Assembly (NCBI GenBank): GCA_903871875.1
Contig: CAIQIR010000093.1
Span: forward strand, 1 to 64,000
Reading direction: 5' to 3'
Source: an uncultured Schlesneria sp.
GTDB lineage: Bacteria > Planctomycetota > Planctomycetia > Planctomycetales > Planctomycetaceae
DNA: 64,000 nt
Shown: positions 5,699-49,624 of the stretch, piece by piece
Layout: every line of letters begins with the position of its first letter
Numbering within the stretch: position 1 is the stretch's first letter
Notes under the pieces: generated by a model
The model's input: the letters and a program-made list of their open reading frames with translations, nothing else
Databases searched by the model: none
What the model was told of the DNA's origin: nothing
Position numbers and translations under genes: made by a program

Positions 5699-8600
5699 TT
5701 ACTTGCCGGGAACGACTTTCAAATTGACGGCAATTTCCGGAACAAGCAAGTGACCGGCCGCCGTGACGTTCAGTTTGACATTGGCCACCGGCGTTTCCGC
5801 TTCAACTTTCGGAGCTCGCACGATCAACTCGAACGAGCTTTGTCCGGCGAGAATGTGACTCGCCTGAACCGTGTATCCCGCCGGCAGTCCGACCAGCGTC
5901 ACGTCGACGGGGCCGGTGAAGCCCGCGGTACGGTTGAGTTGGCCTGTCAACTTGTGATCGACTTCACCGGCTAGCGTTTGCGAGGCGTCGTCGACCTTCG
6001 GCGCGAGGGCGTTTTTGATTTCGACATGTGCCGGCTGAGAATAGGTCGTGGCGAGGACTCGATCCGAATAGGCGTGTGATAACGCATCGGCCCGGATCTC
6101 GAAATCGATGACGGGTTCCACGACGTCTTGGGGGATCGTCAATTGCACCGAAGTCTGGCTGGCGTCGGAAGGAAGCAGGATTCGTGGCGTTGCCGTCACG
6201 ACGGGAAAGTCGCCGGCGGCGGGATTATTGCGATCTCGCTTACGCACTGGCTCCGTCGATTCGAGCGACAACCGGACCGGCAAACTGGCTGAAGGAGGGC
6301 CGGCATGGCGGCTGACAATCACGCCCAGGTCGAATGGGACCCCGCGGAAGAGGACCGTCGGTAACTGCTGTAACTCGACCGTCAACCCGACGGGAGCTGT
6401 CGTGCCGACGCCCAGGGTATCGGTGAACGTGGGAGCCACCGTTCCGGTTTGCAGTCGGGCGGTGTGGCGCAGCACAGGATCCTTGCCGATCGATTCGCCA
6501 ACCAGCCGCAGCATGGCCGGAGCTGCGCCTGTGGGGGTTCCGCGGCGAGCCAGTTGCAGCAGGACCTTGCCCTGAACGTGCGGGGGAATTTCATCGGGAG
6601 TGACCGTGACACCGGCGTCGCCCAGAATGCTGAGTTTAATCGGACCGGCATAGCCCTCGCGCGTGATCTGAGTTTCCACCATCACCGAACCGTCGGCGGG
6701 CAGATTCACTGTGGGGGTGTTCAAAAGCAGAGAAAATCGAGGTTGATCGGCCGGTTCAATCACCAATCGGTAAAACGATCTCGTATCACCGCGGCCAAAC
6801 AAGTCCCGCACTTGCACCAGAAACTGAGACAGTCCGGCCGGGACTGTGAACTCCAACGTGGGATCGCCCACGGTCGGTTGATCGCTGGTCATCGCGATCA
6901 GTACGCCCTGGGGATGACTTAACAGACGCAATTCGCCTTCCAGGGGTGAACCCAACGAATCGGACTGCAGCGTGAATTTCAATTTGTGTCCGGCCGTCAC
7001 GTTCAGCAGGTAGCGGTCTTTTTCCCCCTTCTGCGAAATCCGTCCGCTGACGGCAATCTGTTTCAGCGGCGATTGGTTGAACGAGGCGTCAATCGTTTGG
7101 GGCACCCCTTCGGCGGACGGTCCGGTTTCGACGAGTTCCAGACCACGACTGAGTGGTACCACGGGCAGAGCACCAGCGAAACCGGTTTCCAACCCCAGGG
7201 CGAGCGAACCGGACGTGCTGTCGTTGGGCACCGTAAGCTGACCGGCCAGTTTTGTGCCGGGGGCAAATCCACTGCCGACCGGTTCCACTTCCACGGCGCC
7301 GGGTGACGCGGCCGCAGGCAGCAGACCGTCGATCAACTTCAAATCGCCCACTTTCAATCGGAACGGATTCGTTCCCGGCGCGTTGAAAGTCAGATCGTGC
7401 AGTTCCACGGTATAGAGTCCGTCCGCCGGCAGAATCAACTCGGCCCGCGAATCGCCGCGCAACGAGTTTTGTCCCCAGCCGATCGTCAGGGGACTGCCCG
7501 ACGGCGACTTGATTTCGATCACGGGATTGGCCGGTCCGCCCAGCCGCTTCAATTCGACATCGACCACCAGTCGCTGCCCCTGTTTCCCCGCGACATAAAC
7601 CAGCTGTTGTTGTCCGCCCGCCAGGCTGCCGAAGAACGCCGCCGGCAACTCGGCCGGTTTGTCGGGCGAACTTCCGATCGCGAGTTGGGGCAGTCGATCG
7701 ATGGCCAGTGCCACCGATTTCGTGATGCCCGTATCGGATTTAATCCAGAAGGGATAAATGCCCGGCACCGTCTCGGCCGGGACGGTCGCATTCACCACCA
7801 GGCGATTGGCCGCCGAACCATCCACGACATTGAACTGCACCTCGCCCAGTGGGAAGACGGCAACCGGATTGGAACCCCAATTGCTGCCCGTCACGGTCAA
7901 TTGTGTTGTCTGCCCGACTTGCAGGCCCGGTTGCGACAGGCTGCCAATCGTGGGCACGACGGGGGCGACGGCCTTGTCGGCGGCCATCAGGTCTTTCACA
8001 TTCGCGCCGGCCACTTCCAGGAACAGCTGTTTGACTTCCTCGGCCGAGAGTGCGCGAGGGAACAGTCGGAAATCGCCCAGCACACAACTGGTGAATTCGA
8101 TGGTCGGTTCGCTGCGCCCGACCGTCAGCGGAAGCTTGTTCAGCAATCCCGCCAGGTTGACGTCCTGCGTCCAGGCCTCGTTGCCGTTGACGAAACCACG
8201 AGTCGCCGACTTGGGAACCACCGGTTCGCCGTTGATAAAGTACTGCATGCGCACGTCGTCCACGTCGGTGTCGGCGTCCTGGCCCGGTGCATCGCCCGCC
8301 AGAAAGGTCACGGTCACATAAGTCAGTTTCCGAAACGGAACGGCGTCTTTCGTACTGTAGGTCGCGACACGATAGTCGGCGCCGTCGTGGACATAGACCT
8401 GAAAGTTGTCGTTCTGCATCTGAAAATTGATGCCGTAGTTGGCCGAGAATTTGCCGTCGCTGGTGCCGCGTTTGGCGAACAGGCCGTGATAGGTGGCATC
8501 GGTCAGTTCGGTCAGGTTCACGCAGAACATACTGAGCGTGATCCCCTGCGGGGCGCTGACATCGGGGCTGTCGGCAATCTCCAGACATTGCTGGCGGGCG

Positions 8601-8857
8601 GCGTCGAGTTGCACGGCCTTTTGACCGATCTGATTCCAGAAGGGACTGGGAATGCGAGCGGGGCTGTTGACGAGATTTCCTTCGTCGGCCGCCTGCCCGA
8701 CAGTGGCGGAATCTTTGGTTGGCCCCGCGTCTTCACCGAACGTGAAATGCACGACGGCCTGGGCACCGATCGGAGCGGGGGGATCTTGCGCCACGGCCAT
8801 TCTGGCCAGTAACGTCAACGAGACAACCAGAACAAACGGACGAGCAGCGGTCGACAT
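5699..8857 (-). CDS. Large secreted LamG/concanavalin-like protein with PPC-like and beta-sandwich domains
   Basis: A predicted signal peptide (cleavage near MAVAQD) is followed by a LamG/concanavalin-A-like lectin domain (about residues 35-290). That domain contains VHFTFGEDAGPTKDSATVG and a C-terminal FRLFPRALSAEEVKQLF, which is typical of LamG tails. An IPT/TIG-like segment follows (about 305-390), then repeated pre-peptidase C-terminal-like and immunoglobulin-like sandwich units to residue 1052. No catalytic motif is visible, so it is probably an adhesive or structural protein at the cell surface or outside it. I chose the ATG at 8857, with GAGGA 11 nt before it, over a TTG at 8866. Confidence 0.78.
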   Translation of the reverse strand: MSTAARPFVLVVSLTLLARMAVAQDPPAPIGAQAVVHFTFGEDAGPTKDSATVGQAADEGNLVNSPARIPSPFWNQIGQKAVQLDAARQQCLEIADSPDVSAPQGITLSMFCVNLTELTDATYHGLFAKRGTSDGKFSANYGINFQMQNDNFQVYVHDGADYRVATYSTKDAVPFRKLTYVTVTFLAGDAPGQDADTDVDDVRMQYFINGEPVVPKSATRGFVNGNEAWTQDVNLAGLLNKLPLTVGRSEPTIEFTSCVLGDFRLFPRALSAEEVKQLFLEVAGANVKDLMAADKAVAPVVPTIGSLSQPGLQVGQTTQLTVTGSNWGSNPVAVFPLGEVQFNVVDGSAANRLVVNATVPAETVPGIYPFWIKSDTGITKSVALAIDRLPQLAIGSSPDKPAELPAAFFGSLAGGQQQLVYVAGKQGQRLVVDVELKRLGGPANPVIEIKSPSGSPLTIGWGQNSLRGDSRAELILPADGLYTVELHDLTFNAPGTNPFRLKVGDLKLIDGLLPAAASPGAVEVEPVGSGFAPGTKLAGQLTVPNDSTSGSLALGLETGFAGALPVVPLSRGLELVETGPSAEGVPQTIDASFNQSPLKQIAVSGRISQKGEKDRYLLNVTAGHKLKFTLQSDSLGSPLEGELRLLSHPQGVLIAMTSDQPTVGDPTLEFTVPAGLSQFLVQVRDLFGRGDTRSFYRLVIEPADQPRFSLLLNTPTVNLPADGSVMVETQITREGYAGPIKLSILGDAGVTVTPDEIPPHVQGKVLLQLARRGTPTGAAPAMLRLVGESIGKDPVLRHTARLQTGTVAPTFTDTLGVGTTAPVGLTVELQQLPTVLFRGVPFDLGVIVSRHAGPPSASLPVRLSLESTEPVRKRDRNNPAAGDFPVVTATPRILLPSDASQTSVQLTIPQDVVEPVIDFEIRADALSHAYSDRVLATTYSQPAHVEIKNALAPKVDDASQTLAGEVDHKLTGQLNRTAGFTGPVDVTLVGLPAGYTVQASHILAGQSSFELIVRAPKVEAETPVANVKLNVTAAGHLLVPEIAVNLKVVPGK

Positions 8858-9019
8858 CGGTGGCAATTCCTCGGGCGGGAGTATCTCGTTGTGGTCGGCT
8901 GGGTGCGAAATTTTATTCTAAGGAGGTCAGGGACCTATTTAAAGTTGCTTATGGAAAACCGGCCCCGATTCCCGCCGGTCCGTCACCGCGGCGGCAGTGG
9001 TCGAGTGGGTGCAAATTCG

Positions 9020-9310
9020 TTGGTCAACATCCCTGATTTATTGTGTTTTCCCGCCCTTTTGGAACAAAACAGAGAGCGGCTATGTTTCCCGCTCCGCATT
9101 CTGGTCTTCCTTCTGAGGCACTTCTTCGCGGCTGATCGCCTCGGTAAATGTTAAAATAGGCAATTGCCTGTTTTTTTAAAACCGGATGATCAACATTGAT
9201 CAACATTGAGCAAGTTGGACCAACACCCCTGTTTTGTAGGCTTTCATCGACGTTTCTCGTCTGATCGAGTTTGAACAACATTGATCAACATCCCTATTTC
9301 ATTGCGTTTC
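9020..9310. repeat. Three degenerate ~30-bp direct repeats with TTGRYCAACAYCCCT core
   Basis: Copies start at 9020 (TTGGTCAACATCCCT), 9215 (TTGGACCAACACCCCT) and 9281 (TTGATCAACATCCCT). Copies 1 and 3 also share an ATTTxATTGxGTTT continuation. Between them, at 9188-9207, GATCAACATT occurs twice in tandem. Spacing is irregular, which argues against CRISPR. The function is unknown. Confidence 0.5.
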
Positions 9311-9332
9311 GTGAGAAGTCTCTGTTTCCCGC

Positions 9333-9350
9333 CGGGACGGCAACGTCCCG
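9333..9350. repeat. Perfect 7-bp hairpin with GCAA tetraloop
   Basis: CGGGACG, loop GCAA, then CGTCCCG. A GNRA-type loop on a GC-rich stem would be very stable as RNA. No T-run follows on either strand, so it is not an obvious terminator. Confidence 0.45.
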
Positions 9351-10102
9351 AATTTGGTGTCGCGACAGGTTCCCGGCCGGCCCACGAACGCACGACCAAA
9401 CCCGGACGTCAGCAGACGTGGCTGTTCGTCGAAGCGGTATGAGGCTCGTGGTGGGGGCAGACCCCAATCCGCCAAATGAGCAAATAACGCTATTATGGCG
9501 TGGCGACAGTGTGTGTCAAGGTGTAACTGTCGCTTTCGTGGCGCTTTCGAGAAAATTGTGGCACTGCTGCTGAGTCTTCGAAGCAGCACCTGTCTCGGGA
9601 AAGAATGGTTCGCCGATTGGCGATCCGTGGTTTGCCGGTGCCGCCCGAAAGAAATCGGACAGGGAGATGGAACCAAGCGCCCTTCGTTTCCCGAGCCGAC
9701 ACCAGTTTTTTGCGAGAATGAGCAACCCCAGTGCTGCGGTACGATTCGACCAAGGGGGCTGTGATGTTCGTTTGGCTCGAATTGAGCGCCCATTGACCCA
9801 ACAGAGCGCCGCCCGCACGGCGGTGAGGTATTCATCGCGAATGATGTTCGTTTCAGGTCTTGGTTCAGAAAAGGGCAACAGTCTGTTGCCCAATTTCGGC
9901 AAACAATTTTTCACGAAACGACTTCGTTCGTAATCGATTTTCACGAACGATAAGCGTTTTTCATCTGTCGTATTTGGATGGGTGCGAACACTGCCCAGGC
10001 AAATCAAGCTGCGGCCCGACGCAAATCGGGAACCATCAGGTGGCGCGAAAGTGCGGGATCGTATTATCAATCAATGGGTTGCCACTGATTTCCCCCTTTC
10101 AT

Positions 10103-10136
10103 CTTGTAAGAAAAACACCCCTGTTTTTCTTACAAG
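10103..10136. repeat. Perfect 15-bp inverted repeat, 4-nt CCCC spacer
   Basis: The arms are CTTGTAAGAAAAACA (10103-10117) and its exact complement (10122-10136). A further T-G and A-T pair could extend the stem to 17 bp. It lies about 140 nt before the start of the AbiEi-like gene. AbiEi family regulators are known to bind inverted repeats in their own promoter, so an operator is possible. A cruciform or RNA hairpin is the alternative. Confidence 0.6.
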
Positions 10137-10274
10137 GTGCTTTGAGTATCTGCCGGATGAAACAAAAGAAATCGCTATTTATGAGCCGTATCCCCGCCGC
10201 CGTTTCCGCAGTGTTGTCAAGTTTTACAGCAAAAAAACTTGACCGTTGCTGTTTTCAGGGCGATAATCGGTAGC

Positions 10275-10958
10275 ATGAAAGCCAACAAATTGAAAACTCA
10301 AAATGCGGGAACGACCGCCGGCATGGTTCGCAGGCAAATCGAGGCCAGCGGCGAGCGTGTCTGGCGGTTGGTTGATTTCCATGGCATGCCGTTTATGGCA
10401 GTGGCCCAGACGCTCTCGCGTATGGCAAAGAAGGGGATAATCCAACGGCTCGGTAAGGGGTTGTATTATCGACCGCGCGAAACGGCCTTTGGTCTCAGCA
10501 AGCCCAACACCACACAGATGCGATCGCTACCGGTTTACGGGCGGCACATTTTCCCTGCAGGCATTGCGGCGGCAAATTTGCTCGGCTTCACCACACAGAA
10601 CGCGGCGACAGTGGAAGTTGCGACTGACGGTTCGAGTCTGCCTCGACAGATCGTCGGTCAAGAAACCGTAATCCATACCAGGCGCCCCGAGGCCTGGCGG
10701 GTGCTATCCGAGTCGGACGCCGCACTGCTTGACTTTCTCCGGAATCGGGGTGAGTTGAGTGAACTGTCTCCTGAGAAAACCGTCCAGAGACTACTCGATT
10801 ACTTCTGTGAGCCGGGCCGCTTCAATCGCTTATTCAAGGTTTCGGCCGGAACGATCGCTTTGAGTACCGACAGAATTTTGCAGGAACTGGTGACGTGCGC
10901 AATCGTGTCTTCGTCGAAGCCGGATCAGCCAGCGGCAGAGAGCCAACGGAGCGTGTGA
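10275..10958 (+). CDS. AbiEi-like antitoxin/regulator (DUF6088 family), C-terminus altered
   Basis: In AbiE type IV toxin-antitoxin systems this partner represses its own promoter and neutralises the nucleotidyltransferase toxin. Residues 20-65 form a winged-helix region (MVRRQIE...AVAQTLSRMAKKGIIQRLGKGLYYRP), typical of the DUF6088/AbiEi N-terminus. The following IAAANLLGFTTQ...DGSSLPRQIVGQETV block and the RLLDYFCEPGRFNRLFKVSA segment also match the family. After about residue 192 the family resemblance stops and an unrelated tail runs to the stop. This is where the DNA passes into a toxin-gene fragment in another frame. I read this as a deletion that removed the true end of the antitoxin and the start of the toxin. 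Start chosen at the ATG 10275; no strong ribosome binding site. Confidence 0.75.
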   Translation: MKANKLKTQNAGTTAGMVRRQIEASGERVWRLVDFHGMPFMAVAQTLSRMAKKGIIQRLGKGLYYRPRETAFGLSKPNTTQMRSLPVYGRHIFPAGIAAANLLGFTTQNAATVEVATDGSSLPRQIVGQETVIHTRRPEAWRVLSESDAALLDFLRNRGELSELSPEKTVQRLLDYFCEPGRFNRLFKVSAGTIALSTDRILQELVTCAIVSSSKPDQPAAESQRSV

Positions 10959-11441
10959 AAATTCAGTCTTATGTGGGCCAGTTTCTCGGACAGACTGGAA
11001 TAAGTCTCGGGGCAGACGACGAAGTTGCATTTGAAATGCGGCTGCTGCATTTTCGGCGGACGTTCGTGGAAAAAATGTTCGCGATTCACGGAAAAGTCGA
11101 GGCGTTCAAAAAAACGGGCCGGCCGATCGGAGGGTACGCCCGACATTTTTACGACCTGTACTGTCTTTCGGATCGTCCAGAAGTTCTGGCGATGCTTCAA
11201 TCTGGCGAGTACGACAACATCAAAGCAGATTACGACCGGATCAGTACTGAGTTCTTTCACAAGAGCTATGTACCGCCGCCCGATATGACGTTCTCCAAGA
11301 GTGATGCGTTTCCCGTCACCTGATCTGTCGGTCGCATTGGCGAGAGAATTTGAGTCTCAATGCAGAGTTCTTTGCTTCGGGGAATTCCCGACGTGGGAGG
11401 AATTTCAGAGACGCATCGCCGCGCTTCGGGCGATGCTGTGA
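10850..11441 (+). pseudogene. AbiEii-type nucleotidyltransferase toxin remnant, 5' deletion plus frameshift
   Basis: AbiEii toxins are nucleotidyltransferases of about 280-300 residues. Only the central and C-terminal parts remain here: the NRVFVEAGSASGREP segment, LLHFRRTFVEKMFAIHG and GGYARHFYDLYCLSD, all typical of the family after the catalytic domain. The N-terminal part, with the GS...DxD active site, is absent. The open frame stops at 11323 soon after MTFSKSDAFP. The next frame continues with family-like sequence (CRVLCFGEFPTWEEF) to a stop at 11439-11441, so one extra base (or two lost) near 11310-11315 has broken the gene. The GTG at 10895 is unlikely to be a real start. The left boundary is approximate. 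The toxin is almost certainly inactive. Confidence 0.75.
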
Positions 11442-11893
11442 GGGTGTCCGACGTCTTTGACCTTCGCCATCAGGAGATCGTGGTGGCCCCAGGGAATGGA
11501 CCAAAGCAGGGAATCGGCATTCCATTCCGATTTCGCCACAAGCTGTGGCACTTCTTCGGACGTTGCCAATTTCGCCACAGCTTGTGGCGAAAAGTCCGCA
11601 GGACGCGGGTACGCCCGGTAGAAGGCGACCATCCGGTCAATGTTTCGCTCTGAAAATCCTTTGATTTCAGGCAGTTCATTTTGCAATTCATGGGACAGTC
11701 GGGGAATGATCGCTGCGCCCCAGCCCTGTTGAGATTGCCGAGCGGCGAGCACTTGGCCGACGTCCCAATAAAGTCGAACTAATTCGGCGTTTACAGCCAA
11801 GACTGCCCGCGTTTGGGATCGTTGAATACGAGACTTGATTTCCTTCAAGAGTTCGGGAAAGTCGGTAGGCACGCGGAGATCTGTGTTACTCAT
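11405..11893 (-). pseudogene. Truncated DUF1016 N-terminal domain protein (PDDEXK nuclease family)
   Basis: The full-length family (YhcG-like) is about 340-370 residues: an N-terminal DUF1016_N domain and a C-terminal PDDEXK nuclease domain. Here only the N-terminal domain is present: FPELLKEIKSRIQRSQTRA, NAELVRLYWDVGQVLAARQ, IKGFSERNIDRMVAFYRAYP and LLWSIPWGHHDLLMAKVKD. Family similarity ends at KVKD, near 11452. The last residues to the stop at 11405 are read antisense to the end of the AbiEii remnant. GGAGG five nt before the ATG at 11893 is intact, so an N-terminal fragment could still be made. No piece of the nuclease domain is visible nearby. Confidence 0.75.
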
Positions 11894-19988: not shown

Positions 19989-21353
19989 TTAGCCGTTGGC
20001 GAGCAGTTCCCGCAACGGATTGGCCGCACTGTCGACGATGCGAATCGGCTGACCGTCGGCGGCGAGATTCTGCTTGGCGGGGTTGATGCCCAGTGCCAGG
20101 GCGACCGTGGACAGGAAGTCTGGTACGCTCACGGGGCGGTCATCGACGGTCATGCCGTCGGCGCTGGTGCGGCCGAGAGTCTGTCCGCCCTTGATGCCGC
20201 CACCCGCCAAAACTGTCGACCAGGCTCCAGGGAAGTGATCGCGCCCGTCGGCCGTGTTGATCACTGGAGTGCGACCGAACTCGCCCATCCAGACGATCAA
20301 GGTTGAATCCAGCAGGCCCCTGGTTTCCAGGTCCGTAATTAACTGGCTCCAGCCGCGATCAAGATTGGCGCTCAATTCCTGCACACGTGTGAAGTTCTTT
20401 GCGTGAGTATCCCAGTTTTGATTTCCGCCGCCTAACGTGACTTCGACAAAGCCGACGCCACGTTCGACCAGTCGTCGTGCCAGCAGGCAGCCTTGTCCGA
20501 ATGGATCATTGCCATAGGCCTCGCGCAGGGCGGCAGATTCCTGCAGCAGATCGAAGGCACTGGCCGATTCGGGATGCATCAATCGCAGGGCGCGATCGTA
20601 GGCAATGCGGTGGCTTTGCGCGACCGCGTCCGGCTGGCGGATCGAAAAATCCTGTTCGAGCGCCTGAAGCAGTTCGGCACGGGATTCCATCTGGGCTCGT
20701 GCGACTCCACGGGGTGGCAACAGGTTTTCAACTCGCAACAAGGGCTGCGAGTCGGTTTCGGAGTTGGTGGCCCCGGTCGTGGGGTTGGGACGCAATACCA
20801 GTGGCGCGAAGCGGGTGCCCAGAAATCCGGGTTTGTACGCGAGGGACAAATTTGGCGGAGGGTCAATGTTGATGAACGAGGGTATGGACAATCCCGCAGG
20901 GGAATTCTCGTTCGCGACCAGCGACCCGAATGTGGGATAATCGACATTGATGCGGCGCTGATAACCGGTATGCATGTGAACCGTCGCCCGTTCATGATCG
21001 CCTTCCTTGGTACTCATCGAGCGGACGATGGCCAGGTGTTTGGCGTGCCGGGCCAAGTTTGGCAGATGCTCGCTGAGTTGGATTCCCGGTACGGTGGTCT
21101 CGATCGGTTTGAAGGGCCCACCGTTGGCGTGACCGGGCTTGAGATCGAACGTATCGAGTTGGCTGGCGCCGCCCGACATCCACAACACGATGCAGGCGCG
21201 ATGAGCGGGTGTCGCTTGAGCTCGTGCCGAACCTGTTCCGAGGGCCAGAGAGCCAATGGCCACGGACGCGGTTCGCCCCAGCCAGTCACGTCGGCTGAGC
21301 AAGGGCCCGCCGCCAGCGACTTCGTGGCGGATTAAGTGTTGTAGACTCATCAT
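19989..21353 (-). CDS. DUF1501 family exported protein
   Basis: DUF1501 proteins belong to the alkaline phosphatase/sulfatase-like fold and are usually encoded next to DUF1549/DUF1553 proteins in planctomycetes; their activity is unknown. A twin-arginine leader (SRRDWLGRTASVAIGSLALG) is followed by the family's CIVLWMSGGASQLDTFDLKPG and SMSTKEGDHERATVHMHTG segments. GCLLARRLVERGVGFVEVTLGG and IVWMGEFGRTPVIN come later. CAGGAG just before two consecutive ATG codons (21353 and 21350) supports the start. It is the third gene of an apparent operon led by the ECF sigma factor gene. Confidence 0.88.
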   Translation of the reverse strand: MMSLQHLIRHEVAGGGPLLSRRDWLGRTASVAIGSLALGTGSARAQATPAHRACIVLWMSGGASQLDTFDLKPGHANGGPFKPIETTVPGIQLSEHLPNLARHAKHLAIVRSMSTKEGDHERATVHMHTGYQRRINVDYPTFGSLVANENSPAGLSIPSFINIDPPPNLSLAYKPGFLGTRFAPLVLRPNPTTGATNSETDSQPLLRVENLLPPRGVARAQMESRAELLQALEQDFSIRQPDAVAQSHRIAYDRALRLMHPESASAFDLLQESAALREAYGNDPFGQGCLLARRLVERGVGFVEVTLGGGNQNWDTHAKNFTRVQELSANLDRGWSQLITDLETRGLLDSTLIVWMGEFGRTPVINTADGRDHFPGAWSTVLAGGGIKGGQTLGRTSADGMTVDDRPVSVPDFLSTVALALGINPAKQNLAADGQPIRIVDSAANPLRELLANG

Positions 21354-21444
21354 GGGACTCCTGAAAAGAAGGGCCGTACTCAATCATTCCCCAGCAGGAT
21401 GCTCGCGTGGGCTCATGATCGAGACCCTGGCGGCACCGGCTGTG

Positions 21445-24400
21445 TTAATGGTTCGACATGAATTCACCGCTATTCAGCAATGCCCACAGCAGGTCGGCGA
21501 ATGCCGTGGATCGCTGCTGAGGTTCGGGCCGGCGATTCAAATACTGCAGCATGCGTGCGGATTCCTCCGGGCGAGGTGCCCGTGACAGTGTGGCGAAGTA
21601 GAGTGTTTCGACTCGTTCTGACAGGCTTGATTGATTGTCGGAAATGACTCCGTCGAGCAGTTCGTCGCGGCGGGCGTGTGTCAGCTTTTCCAGGAACGAG
21701 CCGTTCATCAGCGCCAGGGCATCCAGCATCGATGTCTCGGTTTCGGTCTTTGGGCCGGCGGGACCGAAGCGACTGGCCAGATCGACCAGGGCCGGTGCGC
21801 CCCGCCGATAAAACATCGATCTTTTGTTCGTGGGGACGATGTGTTGGCCAAAGCCGGATGCACGGCCGACGCTGTCGAAGAATTGTTCGGTGGTCAGGCT
21901 GCGGACGGGCATCTTCGCCAACAGTCCGATGCCGCGCTGGCTGTCGTGCGTCAGCCGGCTGGTGCGCTGATAGGCGCGACTCGACAAAATGGCTTGGGCC
22001 AGGAATTTGAGATCGAAGTGATGCTCTTGGAAGCGTTGCGCGAGCATGTCGAGCAGATCCAGCCGACCGCTGGTATGCCCGCCGTTGACGTCATCCAGGG
22101 GCTCGACAATTCCGGCACCGAAGAAGTTTCCCCAAATGCGATTCGCCGCGGCGCGAGCGAAATAGGGATTGTCCGGTGCGGTAATCCAGGCGGCAAGATG
22201 CTCACGTGCCGAGACATCGTCGCTGCGCGTGGGTTCACTGCCGTCGAGAAACCGGGCGGCGATCAGTGTATCGGTGCCGGGCAACTTCAGACGATCGATT
22301 CCTCGGTCTTCGCCGAAAACTCTGGCCAGGCCAATTTCGGCTGCAGGGGCAGTTCGGACTCCGGAAAAGAAGGCTGCAAAGCCCCAGAACTGTTCTCGTT
22401 TCCAGGACGCGAATGGGTGGTCATGGCATTGAGCACATTCGAGTTGAATCCCCAGGAACAGTCGCGAGCAGTCTCCTGCCAGTACTGCCGGCGCCAGGTC
22501 GTCTTGACGGAAATAGTAAGCCAGCGGGGTGCCAGACAATTCGACCGGCAGCGTGCCGGGTCGCTGTTCCCGCTCGTCGGGCAGGGGCATGGTGAGCAGC
22601 TCGCGAATCATTTGATCGTAGCGGCGATTGTCGCGCAAGCAGCGTGCCAGCCAGTCTTCCAGCGATGGCAGCAGTGACGAAGATCTCAAGCGGAAATCAC
22701 TGCGTTGAGGTGGCCCCAGCAGGACGGCGCGCCACAGATGCATTTGATGCTCGATGTATTCCGGGCGGTTCAGCAGTCGTTCAATTTGCAGCTGACGCTT
22801 GTTGGCTGCGGGATTGTCGGCAAAATCCTGGGCTTCGTACGCCCAGGGAATCCGTCCGATCAAGTCCAACGTCACGCGTCTCAGCCATTCGCTGTCGTCG
22901 GCGGGCGGAGCCGGGACGACTCCCGCTGCGTCCCACTGGGCTTCGATCAGCCGGTCAATCTCGGCGGCAACGGCGATGGCGTCGGGGTCAATCGGAGCCG
23001 TCGGGGGATTGTTGTGGCGATCGGTCACCACCGGCACTTGTTCATTGGTCGGTGCTGCGGGGGAATTTTGCTTATTCGCGCCTGCGTTGACTGTTGTGGG
23101 AGACGTGGCAGGGAGCTCGGTCGAATTTGAGGTTGGAGCTGCAGCCGCGAGACGATCGAGTCGTCGTAGGGCGCTGGATGCGACTCGTGCGCAGGGATTG
23201 ATGTCGTTCTCTTGTGCCAGCTTGGCCAAGACTCGTCGTGCCTCAGCGTCGCCGATCCGTTCCAGCAACTGAACGCCGCGAACGGTCGTCACCTTGAAGG
23301 GCGAGGCGGGTTGTCCGTGAATCGCGATCAGCAGTGCATCCAGACGCTGACGGAAGGTGTAAGATGTTCGCTGGATGCGAGCGCGCCGCAACGCCAGTTC
23401 GGCCAGATCGCCCAGCGCGGTGAGATCCTGGATCGCGTGCTGGCGCACTTGACCTTGGTGATGGTCCAGATTGTTGATCGACGTGGTGATCAAATCGAGT
23501 TGGATGGGTGTCAGCGGTCGAACATTCGCTTCGACCAATGGGACGGCCAGTTGAGGATGTTCGGCCAAACGGTCGATGGCGTGTTGCGCTGCGGCGGCAT
23601 CGGCGCCACAAAGTGTGTTCCAGAGGGATTGGCCATCTTCGGTTGTGACGATTGCGGACGGGATGACGTCTGGCGAAGGAGTTGGCAGCGTGTTCCACGT
23701 GTAGGCCATCGAGTCGAAGCCTGCGGAAACGCCCAGTCGTCCGTCTGCGGTGAAAGCAATCGATTTGACGACGGCTTCGTGGTCATTCAATCTGGCGAGC
23801 TCTTGCCGTGTGACGACTTCCCAGATGCGGATCGTGTGAAGACCGCGAGAGGATGTGGCGAGTATTGTGCCGTCTCGCGACAGAGCGACTGCCGTGACTT
23901 CACTGGTCTGAACGGGAAACTGTGCTGCGAAGGGACCGCCTGACTCGGCATCCCAAATGATGATCTCGCCCGAGGTATCGGTGGAGAGGATTCCTCGACC
24001 ATCGGCCGTGTACTGAATTGTCCGCACATCGCCGTGATGAGCGGAAAAGCGAAGTAGTTCCTGTCGGTGGGGGATGTCCCAGATACAAATTTCTCCGAAG
24101 CCGATTTTTCGCGGCAACACCGTTGCGAGTCGGCGGCCATCGGGAGAAAACGCAGCGTATCGCGATCCGCTGGATGCGGGGGGAAGCGAAGGTAATTCGT
24201 GACCGGTGGCGACATCCCAGATTTGCACAGGAATGGCGGCAGACGTACCTCCCGAAGCGATGGTCTGTCCGTCGGGGGCAAAGAGCGCCCATGAGATCTC
24301 GCCGCGTTTCGTCTGCAGGTGATGTTCGGCCTGCCCGGATGGCAAACGCCAGAGACGGATGCCGTCGAAACCGACCGAGGCGAGCCGTGTTCCGTTCGGA

Positions 24401-24756
24401 TCGATATCCAGGCCGACGATACTTCCTTCATGGCCGGTCAGTTCAGCCACTTTCTCGCCCGTCTTTGTGTTCCAAAGTTGCAGATGAGATCCTTGATCGC
24501 CGGTGACGATCGTACTGCCGTCCGGTGTGATCGCCACGGCGAAGATCCCGTCACCATGTTCCATTCGCGTCTTCAGGGACAGCGAGTGTGGAACGGGATT
24601 TGATGATGTGACGCTGGGATCCCTGGTCACTCCTGCTGCCGGTTGCGCTTCCAGCTGTTGCTGGGAACGGCAGAGCAGGGGTGGGCCGGCGACTGCCGCA
24701 ACGGTGATTGCGGCAGCTAGCACCCAGGGGAGCGGTCGGCGAATGGGAAATGGCAT
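21445..24756 (-). CDS. WD40 propeller fused to DUF1549-DUF1553 (PSD1-type, c-type haem motif)
   Basis: A 1103-residue exported protein. After a leader (about residues 1-30), seven WD40 blades span about 55-365 (for example AVAITPDGSTIVTGD, IRLWRLPSGQAEH). A helical linker (about 370-545) and a low-complexity Ser/Thr/Pro/Asn stretch follow. DUF1549 begins near 590 (AAEIDRLIEAQW...RVTLDLIGRIP). A CAQCHDHPF motif at about residue 774 fits covalent c-type haem. DUF1553 fills the C-terminus, with ANRIWGNFFGAGIVEPLDDV and LRELLA-like elements. Such proteins are a planctomycete hallmark with no assigned reaction. GGAG precedes the ATG. It lies 61 bp after the ECF sigma gene and 91 bp before the DUF1501 gene. 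Confidence 0.9.
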   Translation of the reverse strand: MPFPIRRPLPWVLAAAITVAAVAGPPLLCRSQQQLEAQPAAGVTRDPSVTSSNPVPHSLSLKTRMEHGDGIFAVAITPDGSTIVTGDQGSHLQLWNTKTGEKVAELTGHEGSIVGLDIDPNGTRLASVGFDGIRLWRLPSGQAEHHLQTKRGEISWALFAPDGQTIASGGTSAAIPVQIWDVATGHELPSLPPASSGSRYAAFSPDGRRLATVLPRKIGFGEICIWDIPHRQELLRFSAHHGDVRTIQYTADGRGILSTDTSGEIIIWDAESGGPFAAQFPVQTSEVTAVALSRDGTILATSSRGLHTIRIWEVVTRQELARLNDHEAVVKSIAFTADGRLGVSAGFDSMAYTWNTLPTPSPDVIPSAIVTTEDGQSLWNTLCGADAAAAQHAIDRLAEHPQLAVPLVEANVRPLTPIQLDLITTSINNLDHHQGQVRQHAIQDLTALGDLAELALRRARIQRTSYTFRQRLDALLIAIHGQPASPFKVTTVRGVQLLERIGDAEARRVLAKLAQENDINPCARVASSALRRLDRLAAAAPTSNSTELPATSPTTVNAGANKQNSPAAPTNEQVPVVTDRHNNPPTAPIDPDAIAVAAEIDRLIEAQWDAAGVVPAPPADDSEWLRRVTLDLIGRIPWAYEAQDFADNPAANKRQLQIERLLNRPEYIEHQMHLWRAVLLGPPQRSDFRLRSSSLLPSLEDWLARCLRDNRRYDQMIRELLTMPLPDEREQRPGTLPVELSGTPLAYYFRQDDLAPAVLAGDCSRLFLGIQLECAQCHDHPFASWKREQFWGFAAFFSGVRTAPAAEIGLARVFGEDRGIDRLKLPGTDTLIAARFLDGSEPTRSDDVSAREHLAAWITAPDNPYFARAAANRIWGNFFGAGIVEPLDDVNGGHTSGRLDLLDMLAQRFQEHHFDLKFLAQAILSSRAYQRTSRLTHDSQRGIGLLAKMPVRSLTTEQFFDSVGRASGFGQHIVPTNKRSMFYRRGAPALVDLASRFGPAGPKTETETSMLDALALMNGSFLEKLTHARRDELLDGVISDNQSSLSERVETLYFATLSRAPRPEESARMLQYLNRRPEPQQRSTAFADLLWALLNSGEFMSNH

Positions 24757-24817: not shown

Positions 24818-26443
24818 TTAGAAATCGCTCGCGGTATCTCCAGCGGCGGGAGTAATCCAGGGCCGCAGATCGGCCTCGGCGATGTCTTTGCCCAGAAATC
24901 GTGCGCTGCCATCGCCGATGCACAAGCCGAATCCCTCTTTGAAGATGCCGCCCAATTTCGGCAAGGGCTTTTCCGTGTCGTAGACGATGTCGGCGGGTTT
25001 CGTCCACGGGACCGGCGTTCCCGCTTCGACGATCAGGATCGTTTTGCTGAGTCCATCGGTGACTTTATCGAAACGCATCCCTTCGGTGCCGTCGAAGGGG
25101 GTCCCCTTGCCAGTGAAGACTTGATAGAACGTTTGATCGGGGAACTTGTCGCGCAAACCGGGGGCGGCGAAGATCTCGGGCATTTTTGACAGCAGCGTCT
25201 TGTTGTGCGGACTGTCCCACGGTTCGTCGAGTTTGAACTGTCTGTAGAGCTTGTCCTGGTCGAGATAGGGCAGCAGCATTACTCGCCAGCTGAGCAGCGG
25301 TTTGTTCCCTTTGCCATACAGGGCTGCGGCGGGAAGGGAGCCTTGGCCACTCGCGTAGTTGTGCATGGCCAGTCCCAGATGCCTCAGGTTTTGCATCCCT
25401 TGTTGCCGTAACTTTTTATGAGCGTCTTTTTCCTTGTCGATCTGTTGGTCTTCACCACCTTTTGGGGCCGTCGCCGTCGGGGCCGTTTCGGCCTTGTCGT
25501 TTTGGGCGATTTCCGTGTTCGGTACTTTCGGTGTCGTCGGCTTCGGACCGGCGGCGACTTGAACCGCTTTGTCACCGCCAGGTGTTGCCAGGGCTCGCTG
25601 CATGACCACAGCGGACCCTGTGGCCGCCACGCCGCCAGCCAGTAGGATCATTCCCGAGATTTTCAATTTGGTAATGAACATTGCTTTCAAGACTCCTTGA
25701 GTTAATGCCGCCGTTTGTGTGGAGACAATTCCACTGATCAAAGCTTGCCCCGAGGCGGCGAGTGTCAGTGCCTGGACCGTGGAACTCGCGAGGGCCACGG
25801 GGACTTCCGCCACCGCTTGCTGAGTCAATAAACCGGTGATCGCCGCGGTCGACAGCACGACGCCGCGTCGCTTCAATCGCTGATGCAACATTTCTCGAGC
25901 ACGCTCCAGGCGGCCCTTCAGCGACCCCAGCGTCCAACCCAGGTGCTCGGCAGCTTCTTCCCGTCCCTCACCTTCCAGACAGCACAGGATCAACGGCAGG
26001 CGGAATCGTTCGGGCAGCTGACAAAGCTCTTGATGAATCAGGCTGACCGTTTCTTCGTCGGCGGGAACAAAGGGGGGAGCGGTCGGATTCATCTCAATAC
26101 CCGTGCCTTCACGTTTCTGTCGCCAGGAGGATTGCGATCGGGATTTATTCGCGACGCGATGAGCGACGCCGTGCAGCCAACCTGCCAGGGACGTGAGGTG
26201 CCCCAGCGAACTGGCTTTCTTCAGCAGCACCAGGAACGTCGCTTGAAAAGCATCCGCTGCATCGTGTTCATTCCTCAACACGCCGCGGCACACGCCCATC
26301 ACCAGCGAACCATGCCGGGCTATGATTTCGGACATGGCTTGCTGCTCGCCGTATTCCGAGAACAGTTTCAGAAGTTCCAAGTCTGTCAGGCTGGGATCGA
26401 TGATCAGCGGCGGCGATGAGGCTGGGTGTTCGACGTTATTCAT
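24818..26443 (-). CDS. ECF sigma factor fused to a transmembrane helix and DUF1559 domain
   Basis: Residues 20-100 are sigma region 2 (LELLKLFSEYGEQQAMSEI, DAADAFQATFLVLLKKASSL, LAGWLHGVAHRVA), and about 135-200 are region 4 (LPERFRLPLILCCLEGEG, HLGWTLGSLKGRLERAREML). An amphipathic linker and a hydrophobic helix (about 257-280, ISGMILLAGGVAATGSAVV) follow. The C-terminal 200 residues match DUF1559, with NLRHLGLAMHNYAS, LLSWRVMLLPYLDQDKLY and the closing IGDGSARFLGKDI. DUF1559 is usually found in pilin-like exported proteins, so this protein would place a sigma factor inside and a sensor-like domain outside the membrane. No clear ribosome binding site. First gene of a three-gene unit. Confidence 0.9.
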   Translation of the reverse strand: MNNVEHPASSPPLIIDPSLTDLELLKLFSEYGEQQAMSEIIARHGSLVMGVCRGVLRNEHDAADAFQATFLVLLKKASSLGHLTSLAGWLHGVAHRVANKSRSQSSWRQKREGTGIEMNPTAPPFVPADEETVSLIHQELCQLPERFRLPLILCCLEGEGREEAAEHLGWTLGSLKGRLERAREMLHQRLKRRGVVLSTAAITGLLTQQAVAEVPVALASSTVQALTLAASGQALISGIVSTQTAALTQGVLKAMFITKLKISGMILLAGGVAATGSAVVMQRALATPGGDKAVQVAAGPKPTTPKVPNTEIAQNDKAETAPTATAPKGGEDQQIDKEKDAHKKLRQQGMQNLRHLGLAMHNYASGQGSLPAAALYGKGNKPLLSWRVMLLPYLDQDKLYRQFKLDEPWDSPHNKTLLSKMPEIFAAPGLRDKFPDQTFYQVFTGKGTPFDGTEGMRFDKVTDGLSKTILIVEAGTPVPWTKPADIVYDTEKPLPKLGGIFKEGFGLCIGDGSARFLGKDIAEADLRPWITPAAGDTASDF

Positions 26444-26879: not shown

Positions 26880-27917
26880 TTAGCGAAGGACTTCCAATTG
26901 TGGCAGCACCTTTTTCAATTCTTTCAGGCCTTCGTCAGTGGTCTTGGTTTGGCGAAGATCCAGCTTGGTCAACAATTCAAAGCGGCTGATGACGGTGAAA
27001 ATCTCGTCCGTGCATTGGGTGTGGGCAAGCACCAGTGAGGTCAGGTTCTTGAGTTCAGCCAGCTCGCGTACTCCTGCGTCGCTGACCTTGGTGTTGAACA
27101 GGCTGAGTGTGGTCAGAGACGTCAGTTTGCCGACTTCTTTTAAGCCCTCGTCCGTGATCTTCGTACCGCTGAGATTCAGTGTGGTGAGCGTCGTTGATCC
27201 ACTAATTTCTGGCAACCCTTCATCGGTAATCTGGGTCCCGAATAAAATCAGGCTGGTGAGCTGGGGCAGGCCGCCGATTCTCTTCAATCCGGCATCCGTC
27301 ACCTCGGTATCGCCCAAATTGAGAGTCGCCAGATTCGTCATTCCATCCAGCACCTTCAGGCCGCGGTCGGATATCTTCGTCCCGTCGAGTTTCAACGTTA
27401 TCAGGCTCGTCAGTTCGCGGATTCGCGCCAGGCCGGCGTTCGTAATCGCCGTGCGAGAAACATCGAGCGTCGTCAGATTTTTCAGTTCTCCGATTTCCTT
27501 CATGCCGAGATCGGTCAATTTGATGCCGCTGCAGGTCAACGAGGTGAGGCCGGCCACGCTGCTGATGATGCTGATGCCTTCGTCCGTTACTTTCGAATTT
27601 GCGAGATTGAGCGTTGTAAGATGTTTCGACTTGTAAACTCCCTTCAGTCCGCCGTCGGAGGCCTTGGTTCCCGAAAGATTAAGCGTCTGCAGATTCGGAA
27701 ATTGCTTCAGCAGGACCAGATACCGGTCGTTCACCTTTTGGCTGCCGGCAAAGTCGACTCCAATCACCGGATGTCCTTCGAGTTCGAAATCTCTGGTGAT
27801 CTTGCCACCCATTTGCTCCATCCGCTTCAAGACCTTGGTGTAGGCCGGATCGTCTTCCGCGATCGCGAGCCTGCTCAAGAACAGCGGGATGACCAACAAC
27901 ATCAATCGACAGCGCAT
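26880..27917 (-). CDS. Secreted leucine-rich repeat protein 1
   Basis: A signal peptide (about 20 residues, ending AIAED) is followed by 11 complete leucine-rich repeats of 23-24 residues and a partial one. The consensus is LTxLxLxxTxITDxGLKEIxxL, as in NLTTLDVSRTAITNAG and TLTTLNLSGTKITDEG. The fold would be a solenoid used for protein or glycan binding outside the cytoplasm. A paralogue lies directly upstream on the same strand. No catalytic or transmembrane segment besides the leader. Confidence 0.88.
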   Translation of the reverse strand: MRCRLMLLVIPLFLSRLAIAEDDPAYTKVLKRMEQMGGKITRDFELEGHPVIGVDFAGSQKVNDRYLVLLKQFPNLQTLNLSGTKASDGGLKGVYKSKHLTTLNLANSKVTDEGISIISSVAGLTSLTCSGIKLTDLGMKEIGELKNLTTLDVSRTAITNAGLARIRELTSLITLKLDGTKISDRGLKVLDGMTNLATLNLGDTEVTDAGLKRIGGLPQLTSLILFGTQITDEGLPEISGSTTLTTLNLSGTKITDEGLKEVGKLTSLTTLSLFNTKVSDAGVRELAELKNLTSLVLAHTQCTDEIFTVISRFELLTKLDLRQTKTTDEGLKELKKVLPQLEVLR

Positions 27918-28056: not shown

Positions 28057-29241
28057 TTATCGAGTGACTTCCAGCCGGGGATGCGATTGCTGAAGCTTTT
28101 TGACCGCCCCGGCGGTGACTTTGGTTCCGGTGAGGTCGAGATGAGCGAGGTGCCTTAGCCCTTTGATCTCTTTTAACCCGGCGTCGGTGATAGACGTTTT
28201 GGAAACGTCCAACTCTGTCAGATTCAGCAGCTTGCCAATCTCTTTCATGCCGCGATCGGACAGTTTTTGTACGCTTCCCAGGTCGAGGGACGTCAGATAA
28301 GTGAGTTCACGCAGGTCCTTCAGATACATGTCAGCGGTTTGCGTGTCGTGCAGCGAGAGCCGCGACAGATTTTTGAGATTGCCGAGATCCTTGAGTCCAG
28401 TGCCTGTGATGCGGTGGTTGTTTCCCAGTGCGAGCGACTTCAGCTTTTTGAGCTGCCCCAGTTTCTTCATTCCGCTGTCGGAAATCCGTGTTCCGCTGAG
28501 ATCCAGCGACAAGAGATTCGCGAGCACATCGATGTCTCGCAGGCCTTCATCGGTGATTCCGGTCTGATCCAGGTCCAGCCTGGTCAGTCCCGTCAGGTTG
28601 CGAAACTCTTTCGTCCCCGCATCTGTGATCTTGGTGCTGCTGAGATCCAGCGTCGTCAGGTTGGAAAGTTTACCGATTTGTCGTAGCCCGACATCGGTCA
28701 CCGGGGTGTCCCAAAGGTTCAGAGTCGTCAAATTCCGCAGTTTGCCAATGTCTTGCAGGCCATCATCCGTGATCTGAGTTTGGCCCAGCCCGAGCGTGGT
28801 GAGATTTTTCAGCTGATAACTGTCTCTCAATCCGTCATCCGTAATCGGCGTGTTGCTCAGGACCAGCATGGTCAGTTGTTTCAGTCCTTTGATCTCTTTC
28901 ATCCCGGCATCGGTGATTTGAGTCTGACCGAGAACCAGAGTTTTTAAATTCGTCAGTGCACCCACATCTCGTAGCCCGTCATCCGTGATCTGGGTGCCTC
29001 GCAGGTTCAGTGAGACCAGGCTGGGGAAGGCCTTCAGTCGCGGAGTATCACGATCGCCGAACTTGGTGCTCTGCGGAAAGATCAGGCCAATCACAGGACG
29101 AGCTGATAGCCGATCGTTGCGGGTGATTTTCCCACCCAACCGCTCGATGGTCGCAATCGTCTGCGCCTCGTCCTGCGCCATGACAAATGACGGGACCAGA
29201 CTGACAACGACAAAAGCCCAGAATAAACGAGATGCCTGCAT
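28057..29241 (-). CDS. Secreted leucine-rich repeat protein 2
   Basis: Paralogue of the neighbouring LRR protein, with a signal peptide (LFWAFVVVSLVPSFVMAQDE) and about 13 repeats plus a partial one (NLKTLVLGQTQITDAG, NLTTLDLSSTKITDAG, HLAHLDLTGTKVTAGA). Both proteins share a pre-repeat motif with a 'GGKITR...PVIG' core, so they arose by gene duplication followed by changes in repeat number. I chose the ATG at 29241 since the leader begins there; a GTG at 29280 would add 13 residues. Confidence 0.86.
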   Translation of the reverse strand: MQASRLFWAFVVVSLVPSFVMAQDEAQTIATIERLGGKITRNDRLSARPVIGLIFPQSTKFGDRDTPRLKAFPSLVSLNLRGTQITDDGLRDVGALTNLKTLVLGQTQITDAGMKEIKGLKQLTMLVLSNTPITDDGLRDSYQLKNLTTLGLGQTQITDDGLQDIGKLRNLTTLNLWDTPVTDVGLRQIGKLSNLTTLDLSSTKITDAGTKEFRNLTGLTRLDLDQTGITDEGLRDIDVLANLLSLDLSGTRISDSGMKKLGQLKKLKSLALGNNHRITGTGLKDLGNLKNLSRLSLHDTQTADMYLKDLRELTYLTSLDLGSVQKLSDRGMKEIGKLLNLTELDVSKTSITDAGLKEIKGLRHLAHLDLTGTKVTAGAVKKLQQSHPRLEVTR

Positions 29242-29532
29242 TGTTCGTCGATTCTGCGAAAGGCCGAAAACGGAGTTCACGGACGGGATCTCAAAACCGG
29301 TGTGGTTGTTTTCTTCCGGTTGGTGGGGATCATCGCTGTTTCATAACCACCTGTCATCAACGAACGGTATCTCGGAAGGTCATGAAAAAGCTGTCATTGA
29401 CGACATAAAGACATTTTGACAATGTATTGCCAGGTATCAGAACCAGACAAGACCGATGTTGACCGACGGCTTCCGACTCGGCATTCACAAGTCTGTCCGT
29501 TGATTCTCGTCTCGAAAAAGTCAGTGAAAGTC

Positions 29533-48118: not shown

Positions 48119-49624
48119 ATGAAAGTTGATCAAACACATTTGAAGACCGCGGCGCGAGCCGGTGGCATCCGTCGGCGATTGGTGGTGGCCATCGGACTGC
48201 TGACGGTCTTTGTTGGGCTGGGCGGCGGGTCGATTTATCTGTTTCGTGGCGATGGAAATCCGCAGGTGATCACGCGCCGGCCGATCGTTGGTGAATTTGC
48301 GATTGATATCGTCGAACGTGGCGATGTGGAGAGTTCTTCCAATACGGAATTGAGATGCGAGATTTCGTCCGCCGAGGGTGTACGAATTCTCGAAATCGTT
48401 CCGGAAGGAACAATGGTGAATCCCGGTGATGTAGTCGTGCAACTGGATGATTCCACCATTCGCAAAGATCTGAACACTCAGCGAATTACCGTCAACACGG
48501 TCGATGCCGCCTATAGCAAAGCCAAGAACGAGTACGACGCGGCGTTGATTGCTCGGAAAGAGTACGAACTGGGCATGTTCGTTCAGGAAGAACAGAAGCT
48601 GGAAAGTGAACTGTTCGTGGCCGAAGAGCAATCGCGTCGCGCAAAGAACTCTTACGGCCATAGCCGCACTCTGGCCGCTCGCGGATACATCACCGATTCG
48701 CAACTGGAAGGCGATCGATTTGCGGTCGACAAGTTTCAGAAAGACTTGGATGCTGCGACAACCAAATTGCGTGTGATTCGCGACTTTACCCGGCCCAAGA
48801 CGCTGAAGAAACATGATTCAGATATCAAAACGGCCGAAGCGACGGCGGCGGCCGAGAAGGCCAAGTACGAAATCGAAGTCGAGAAACTGGCCAATCTGGA
48901 AAGTCAGCTGCAAAAATGCGTAATCAAGGCGGCATCGGCCGGTCAGGTGGTGTATCACAACCCTAACCGTTGGCGCGACGATGAATTCACCGTTCGCAAA
49001 GGGAACCGCGTTCGCGAACGGCAAGTGATCGTCAAATTGCCAGACATTGGCAAGATGCAGGTCAAAACGAAGATCAGTGAAGCGCGCGTCGATCGTGTGA
49101 AACCCGGGATGGAGGCGACGGTTCGCATCGAAGCCATTCGAGGATCGGAATTAAAGGGCATCGTCAAGACTGTCAACGCCTACGCGTCGGACGACAACTG
49201 GTTCAATCCCAATACCAAGCAGTACGATGCGATCATCACCGTCAACGAACCGCCTGAGACACTTAAGCCTGGCATGACGTCACAGGTTTCGATTCGAATC
49301 GAAACGCAGGCCAACGTTTTACAGGTTCCCGTGCAATGCGTGGTCGAGCGAAGTGCCAAGCATTACGGTGTGATTCGCGAACCGTCGGGTAAGTTGGCCC
49401 TGCGTGAGTTGCTGATCGGTTCCACCAACGAAAAGTTCATTATCGTGAAGGACGGGATCACTCCCAACGACGATGTGGTAATGAATCCCCGCGCCCATCT
49501 GGCTCGTGTTGGTTTGAAGGACGCTGACGACGCTACAAGTCCCGACAAAGCCAAGGAGGATTCGAAATCGAAGAGTCCTGCCACACCGGTGGCCGGGCAA
49601 GCCGCTGGCCAGAACGCGTCGTGA
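48119..49624 (+). CDS. HlyD/MacA-family periplasmic adaptor protein
   Basis: 501 residues. A single N-terminal helix (about 19-41) is followed by a biotinyl-lipoyl-like half (SSAEGVRILEIVPEGTMVNPGDVVVQLDD), a long coiled coil (about 130-260, with heptads rich in Glu, Lys and Ala) and the second lipoyl half. Beta-barrel and membrane-proximal domains follow (KISEARVDRVKPGMEATVRIE). A tail rich in Lys, Ser and Ala ends at a GTGA overlap with the permease gene. It links an inner-membrane transporter with an outer-membrane channel. Confidence 0.9.
   Translation: MKVDQTHLKTAARAGGIRRRLVVAIGLLTVFVGLGGGSIYLFRGDGNPQVITRRPIVGEFAIDIVERGDVESSSNTELRCEISSAEGVRILEIVPEGTMVNPGDVVVQLDDSTIRKDLNTQRITVNTVDAAYSKAKNEYDAALIARKEYELGMFVQEEQKLESELFVAEEQSRRAKNSYGHSRTLAARGYITDSQLEGDRFAVDKFQKDLDAATTKLRVIRDFTRPKTLKKHDSDIKTAEATAAAEKAKYEIEVEKLANLESQLQKCVIKAASAGQVVYHNPNRWRDDEFTVRKGNRVRERQVIVKLPDIGKMQVKTKISEARVDRVKPGMEATVRIEAIRGSELKGIVKTVNAYASDDNWFNPNTKQYDAIITVNEPPETLKPGMTSQVSIRIETQANVLQVPVQCVVERSAKHYGVIREPSGKLALRELLIGSTNEKFIIVKDGITPNDDVVMNPRAHLARVGLKDADDATSPDKAKEDSKSKSPATPVAGQAAGQNAS

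Follow-up and report, generated by a model that had tools for sequence, protein, structure and literature searches.

The gene described here raises the question of what a sigma factor does with a DUF1559 domain joined to its C-terminus, on which side of the membrane that domain sits, and whether the genes that follow belong to the same system. It lies in the window, the whole stretch of 64,000 nucleotides that was analysed, and the features of the gene and its product are listed below.

24818..26443, minus strand: sigma-helix-DUF1559 fusion gene, 541 aa (open frame from ATG, Pfam, collinear relative)
25859..26398, minus strand: ECF sigma domain, regions 2 and 4, residues 16–195, with C52 and C154 (Pfam, cysteine counts, structure matches)
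25664..25858, minus strand: helical linker, residues about 196–260 (profile matches, AlphaFold2 model)
25592..25660, minus strand: hydrophobic helix, residues about 262–284, predicted N-in/C-out (hydropathy, comparison of fusions)
24821..25411, minus strand: compact DUF1559 domain, residues 345–541 (Pfam, alignment, AlphaFold2 model, weak type IVb pilin matches)

Gene architecture

A single open frame of 541 codons with an ATG start runs from 26443 to 24818 on the minus strand, and in the encoded protein sigma-70 regions 2 and 4 come first, then a single hydrophobic helix and last a DUF1559 domain of compact form, the extension C-terminal to the sigma part being about 346 residues long. The original prediction placed sigma regions, a membrane helix and a "full" DUF1559 domain in one frame; the single frame and all of the parts are there, as seen from Pfam and hydropathy, and the GDGSARFL motif that it named is present in the DUF1559 domain, but "full" is inexact for a compact domain only about 200 residues long. 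Because the closest relative, L031 of the same-genus genome G007, carries the same fusion as a single, collinear frame (53% identity over the alignment), a frameshift artefact is ruled out, as is a chimera joining unrelated domains, and the check for a frameshift that had been proposed at the outset thus found none.

The window genome is 7.6 Mb in size and contains 71 DUF1559 matches, among which only the window gene was found fused to a sigma domain. A search for the fusion architecture across genomes, also proposed at the outset, covered 397 genomes of the class and a named genome collection, and recovered 29 distinct sigma-helix-DUF1559 fusions, from the window's own family as well as from the Isosphaeraceae and the Gemmataceae; the view of the fusion as a unique gene is therefore rejected. 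Rather than a singular oddity, the finding is a repeatedly occurring variant within a known group of sigma factors, and the general class, ECF57 with its fused C-terminal extensions, is already described. We found no paper linking DUF1559 to a sigma fusion, which is weak evidence given the partial coverage of the literature.

The sigma domain and its relationship to ECF57

The sigma part matches the Pfam models Sigma70_r2 at residues 41–107 (32.9 bits, cut-off 24) and Sigma70_r4_2 at residues 136–186 (32.0 bits, cut-off 25.7), as well as the general ECF model of NCBIfam, TIGR02937 (45.8 bits, cut-off 42.9). Region 3 is absent and, with regions 2 and 4 both above the Pfam cut-offs, the protein is an ECF sigma factor; the sigma parts of a full-length AlphaFold2 model also match ECF sigma factors structurally. 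Each of the two regions contains a conserved cysteine: C52 in region 2 is present in 26 of the 29 fusions and C154 in region 4 in all 29, both are present in all 18 other membrane-ECF relatives, and neither cysteine is seen at these columns in short ECFs from the same loci.

The group that shares these features is ECF57, which has WP_015250107.1 as its representative. Passages of a review describe ECF57 as a planctomycete group with a Singulisphaera (Isosphaeraceae) representative and with C-terminal extensions in which WD40-like repeats are prevalent, but not universal; the same passages note two conserved cysteines, for which a possible link between regions 2 and 4 was suggested, and a reducing cytoplasm that disfavours a disulphide (PMC8999054). 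The window protein has a cysteine in each sigma region and a long C-terminal extension, and WD40-extended members (L206, L037, L130) occur within the same sigma tree. Because the C52/C154 pair is conserved and the WD40-extended members share the tree, our best reading is that the gene belongs to ECF57 or is adjacent to it, an assignment made from the described features of the group.

The DUF1559 domain

DUF1559 is among the largest of the planctomycete protein families and is without an established function; Planctopirus limnophila has 68 paralogues, two of which are essential (PMC10632474). In the window protein the Pfam match (PF07596) covers residues 346–421 with 79.7 bits against a cut-off of 23.3, and spans model positions 9–87 of 268. 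The match is partial because the domain is of the compact form, which aligns end to end with 59 relatives and shares 41–54% identity with solo relatives. A hydrophobic N-terminus precedes the domain in 91 of the 98 solo DUF1559 relatives, and by its sequence the domain belongs to an exported protein family. No prepilin cleavage motif was found in the fusions or in solo relatives of this DUF1559 subtype, and the histidine of the H-X9-DG motif is replaced by phenylalanine (F501), such that the window domain has neither the prepilin-like N-terminal helix nor the H-X9-DG motif of the long form. With no prepilin motif and with F501 in place of the histidine, the domain is not expected to form pili by the usual route, and assembly into a pilus via a prepilin peptidase is rejected for the subtype.

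An AlphaFold2 model of the domain (mean pLDDT 96) has a long N-terminal helix (construct residues 2–32), followed by strands and short helices. A Foldseek search of the PDB with this model gave no match below an E value of 1; in a VIA-align comparison limited to Foldseek's own candidates, the only rows with Z of at least 2 were the type IVb pilins CofA and TcpA, with low scores (Z 3.3, 2.8 and 2.3, with 108, 100 and 117 residues aligned and rmsd of 3.8–4.4). These low-scoring matches fit a pilin-like head, and the modelled domain may be pilin-like in fold. The pilus-like partner suggested in the original prediction is a weak idea in view of the missing prepilin motif, although the fold may be pilin-like.

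Membrane helix, topology and activation

The linker that follows the sigma domain is conserved in many members of this membrane-sigma family, and its helices, which lie between region 4 and the membrane, have pLDDT values of mostly 77–90 in the full-length model. The most hydrophobic 19-mer of the window protein (residues 262–280) is preceded by three lysines and is moderate in its hydrophobicity, with a mean Kyte-Doolittle value of 1.81. A hydrophobic helix is found between the sigma and DUF1559 parts in all 23 of the fusions scanned (mean values of 1.64–2.29), nearly all of which have at least one Lys or Arg within the 15 residues ahead of it. The pLDDT falls to 35–60 at the end of the helix and in the stretch on to the DUF1559 domain, so that the arrangement of the two halves relative to each other is not predicted. 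The placing of the sigma part inside and of DUF1559 outside is supported most cleanly by the fusion L089, of which residues 288–792 align with the exported protein L036 (49% identity over 515 residues); L036 has a signal-peptide-like start, and the sigma-helix module of L089 occupies its place. The DUF1559 domain probably sits outside the membrane, and the original prediction of a sigma factor held to the membrane by a single helix, with its DUF1559 domain probably beyond the cytoplasm, agrees both with the recurrence of the helix in every scanned fusion and with the membership of the domain in an exported family.

On balance we favor the view that this is a membrane-anchored, one-component sigma factor of the ECF57 type, with an outward, compact, headless pilin-like DUF1559 domain as its input, and we infer its topology, input role and activation as follows. 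The sigma regions would lie in the cytoplasm, the single helix would cross the membrane, and the DUF1559 domain would face outwards, where it could bind a ligand or a surface partner, or could be misfolded or lost. Such a change would switch on the sigma part, most likely by cutting and release, or alternatively by a change of shape relayed via the linker helices and the cysteine pair. By analogy with IutY, cutting could be by a site-2 protease, for which the M50 genes present in the window genome are candidates; in passages of the ECF review, IutY (ECF243) is a fused sigma factor freed by Prc and RseP proteolysis, and it provides a precedent for release (PMC8999054). The WD40-PSD1 and DUF1501 genes downstream would be plausible co-transcribed genes. 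Pfam detects no anti-sigma domain, either zinc-finger or FecR-like, in the window protein, in contrast to the sigma/anti-sigma fusions released by proteolysis (IutY, ECF48/52/53), and no cleavage site was identified in it.

A shape change without cutting is the main rival to proteolytic release. The tether would be real, and the outer domain would reshape a membrane-bound sigma part, via the linker helices or a cysteine bond, that works at the membrane. The conserved cysteines of regions 2 and 4, the link suggested for them in the ECF57 passages (PMC8999054), and the pLDDT values of the linker helices are all consistent with this, but the same source notes that a reducing cytoplasm disfavours the disulphide, and it is proteolysis that frees IutY, the membrane-fused example that has been characterised; we regard activation without cutting as rather unlikely. 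If the favored reading of an anchored sigma factor with DUF1559 as its input is true, the cell would detect something outside and turn on genes directly in response, and the question of what DUF1559 senses or binds would become a reporter assay.

The downstream genes

Two genes lie in line downstream of the fusion gene, as the original prediction described.

21445..24756, minus strand: exported WD40-PSCyt2(DUF1549)-PSD1(DUF1553) protein (Pfam, in line downstream)
19989..21383, minus strand: DUF1501 protein (Pfam, usual downstream partner of PSCyt2-PSD1)

All three genes are on the same strand, with gaps of 61 bp between the sigma-DUF1559 and PSD1 genes and 61 bp between the PSD1 and DUF1501 genes; no terminator-like or promoter-like matches were found in the two gaps, and from this layout an operon is likely. 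We note that the window PSCyt2-PSD1 protein has a WD40 propeller in the same chain, whereas its closest relatives, at about 550 aa, often have WD40 encoded by a gene of its own immediately upstream. Two leucine-rich-repeat genes in a row precede the sigma gene on the same strand (26880–27917 and 28057–29280), the first of which is confirmed by Pfam. Elsewhere in the window are HlyD-like and MacB/FtsX-like genes with a 4 bp overlap (48119–50955), a probable export pair, and an alkyl sulfatase gene of the metallo-beta-lactamase fold (56586–58748).

The original prediction went further, in that a conserved unit of sigma-DUF1559, PSD1 and DUF1501 would be an undescribed surface-signalling system. 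In a rival reading built on it, the sigma factor would control both exported proteins of such a unit. The same order does occur in the window, G212 (L061) and G241 (L089/L125), but only in these three, and a PSD1 gene is next to two of the 24 other fusions compared to none of 108 control genes, a recurrence that is slightly above the controls in a comparison that is rough, since the loci were picked by similarity. An ECF-PSD1 pairing has also been noticed before, in that the Rhodopirellula ECF RB10049 was suggested as a regulator of the PSD1/PSC2 gene RB10051, its neighbor by locus number (PMC2754498). Against such a unit, the G007 orthologue, which is both the nearest and from the same genus, has neither PSD1 nor DUF1501 within about 8 kb, and its neighbors are on the opposite strand. 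Secondly, while DUF1501 is downstream in most of the loci with the closest PSCyt2-PSD1 relatives (about 33 of 40), the gene upstream of PSD1 varies among these 40, with WD40 genes in eight, exported DUF1559 genes in two (L088, L102) and a sigma-DUF1559 fusion in one (L089), and other neighbors are thus usual for the PSD1-DUF1501 pairs. Thirdly, the PSD1 tree puts the genes of the window, of G212 and of G241 at three different positions and not in one clade, and the arrangement was therefore most likely assembled more than once, apparently independently. An inherited three-gene unit is rejected on the G007 locus, the neighborhoods of the other loci and the PSD1 tree, and we consider a single conserved signalling unit to be improbable.

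Recurrence and exchange of outer domains

Family f2 is tied to the Isosphaeraceae (Singulisphaera sp. GP187) and f3 to the Gemmataceae (by matching contigs), and Tautonia sociabilis and Zavarzinella formosa each have a sigma-DUF1559 fusion. G007 encodes a second and more divergent sigma-DUF1559 protein, L032, which forms a well-supported group (100/97) with L031 and the window protein. The DUF1559 label needs about eight changes in the sigma tree, at least three of them forced by well-supported branches, and in the domain tree the fusions and the solo DUF1559 proteins are interleaved, with at least four changes forced. A single origin of the DUF1559 fusion is unsupported by these trees, which are most simply explained by outer domains having been captured repeatedly. 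There is further variation within the fusions, as L068 has a TIGR03067 domain ahead of the DUF1559 domain. The L055 frame (6486–11837) runs several hundred residues past DUF1559, and by eye only the added residues resemble repeated carboxypeptidase-regulatory-type domains.

Eleven other sigma genes found by the same search in the window genome are also long frames (567–898 aa), most of which carry outer parts other than DUF1559. The outer part of L191 is CarboxypepD_reg, and the extension of L200 (C147 of the window genome, 4264–6189, minus strand) has a weak match to the secretin/TonB N-terminal short domain (STN). This STN-like extension recalls TonB-type surface signalling. L192–L199 have an unassigned outer region, about 400 residues long, after which come another hydrophobic segment and an Arg-rich tail at the C-terminus, which suggests a two-pass topology for L192, L193, L194, L195, L196, L198 and L199. 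The combination of a sigma part, one helix and an outer domain recurs across planctomycetes with a wide variety of outer domains, and the fusions document a sigma factor group gaining new outer sensors via repeated domain capture. A broader proposal, possible if somewhat doubtful, is that the ECF sigma-helix module is an exchangeable head that has repeatedly replaced the signal peptides of exported planctomycete proteins, making a surface protein its own transcriptional reporter; the DUF1559 fusions would be several independent cases, and in three lineages the reporter would have come to precede, and may control, a PSD1-DUF1501 pair that is exported.

The weakest alternative, that the helix does not span the membrane and the whole protein is cytoplasmic, with DUF1559 as an extension that binds a ligand inside the cell, comparable to the SnoaL domain in ECF41, fits the moderate hydrophobicity of the window helix, but is very improbable in view of the helix in all 23 scanned fusions, the signal-peptide-like starts of solo relatives, the sigma-helix module that replaces a signal peptide in L089 compared to L036, and the second hydrophobic segment and Arg-rich C-terminal tail of the window genome's own paralogues.

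Comparison with known systems

Four known systems are close to the window protein. Exported planctomycete DUF1559 (PF07596) proteins have the homologous domain, at the 41–54% identity given above for solo relatives, and differ in that the window form is compact and C-terminal, without a prepilin N-terminus and with F501 for the H-X9-DG histidine. SCO4117 (ECF52) of Streptomyces coelicolor likewise joins a sigma factor to a transmembrane segment and an outer domain, but it is actinobacterial and has a carbohydrate-binding domain, and the ECF52 group has a zinc-finger anti-sigma part. IutY of Pseudomonas putida (ECF243), a sigma factor fused to a membrane anti-sigma factor, combines the sigma part, the membrane pass and the outer part within a single chain, as the window protein does; the window protein differs in having no anti-sigma or FecR-type domain and in its ECF group, and no TonB-dependent receptor is seen beside its gene. 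ECF57 differs in its extension, for which WD40 repeats are mentioned in the review where the window protein has DUF1559, and in the membrane helix of the window protein, of which the passages of the review on ECF57 make no mention (PMC8999054). In the cysteines of sigma regions 2 and 4, the long C-terminal extension, the Isosphaeraceae representative and the WD40-extended relatives recovered here, it is ECF57 that the window protein resembles.
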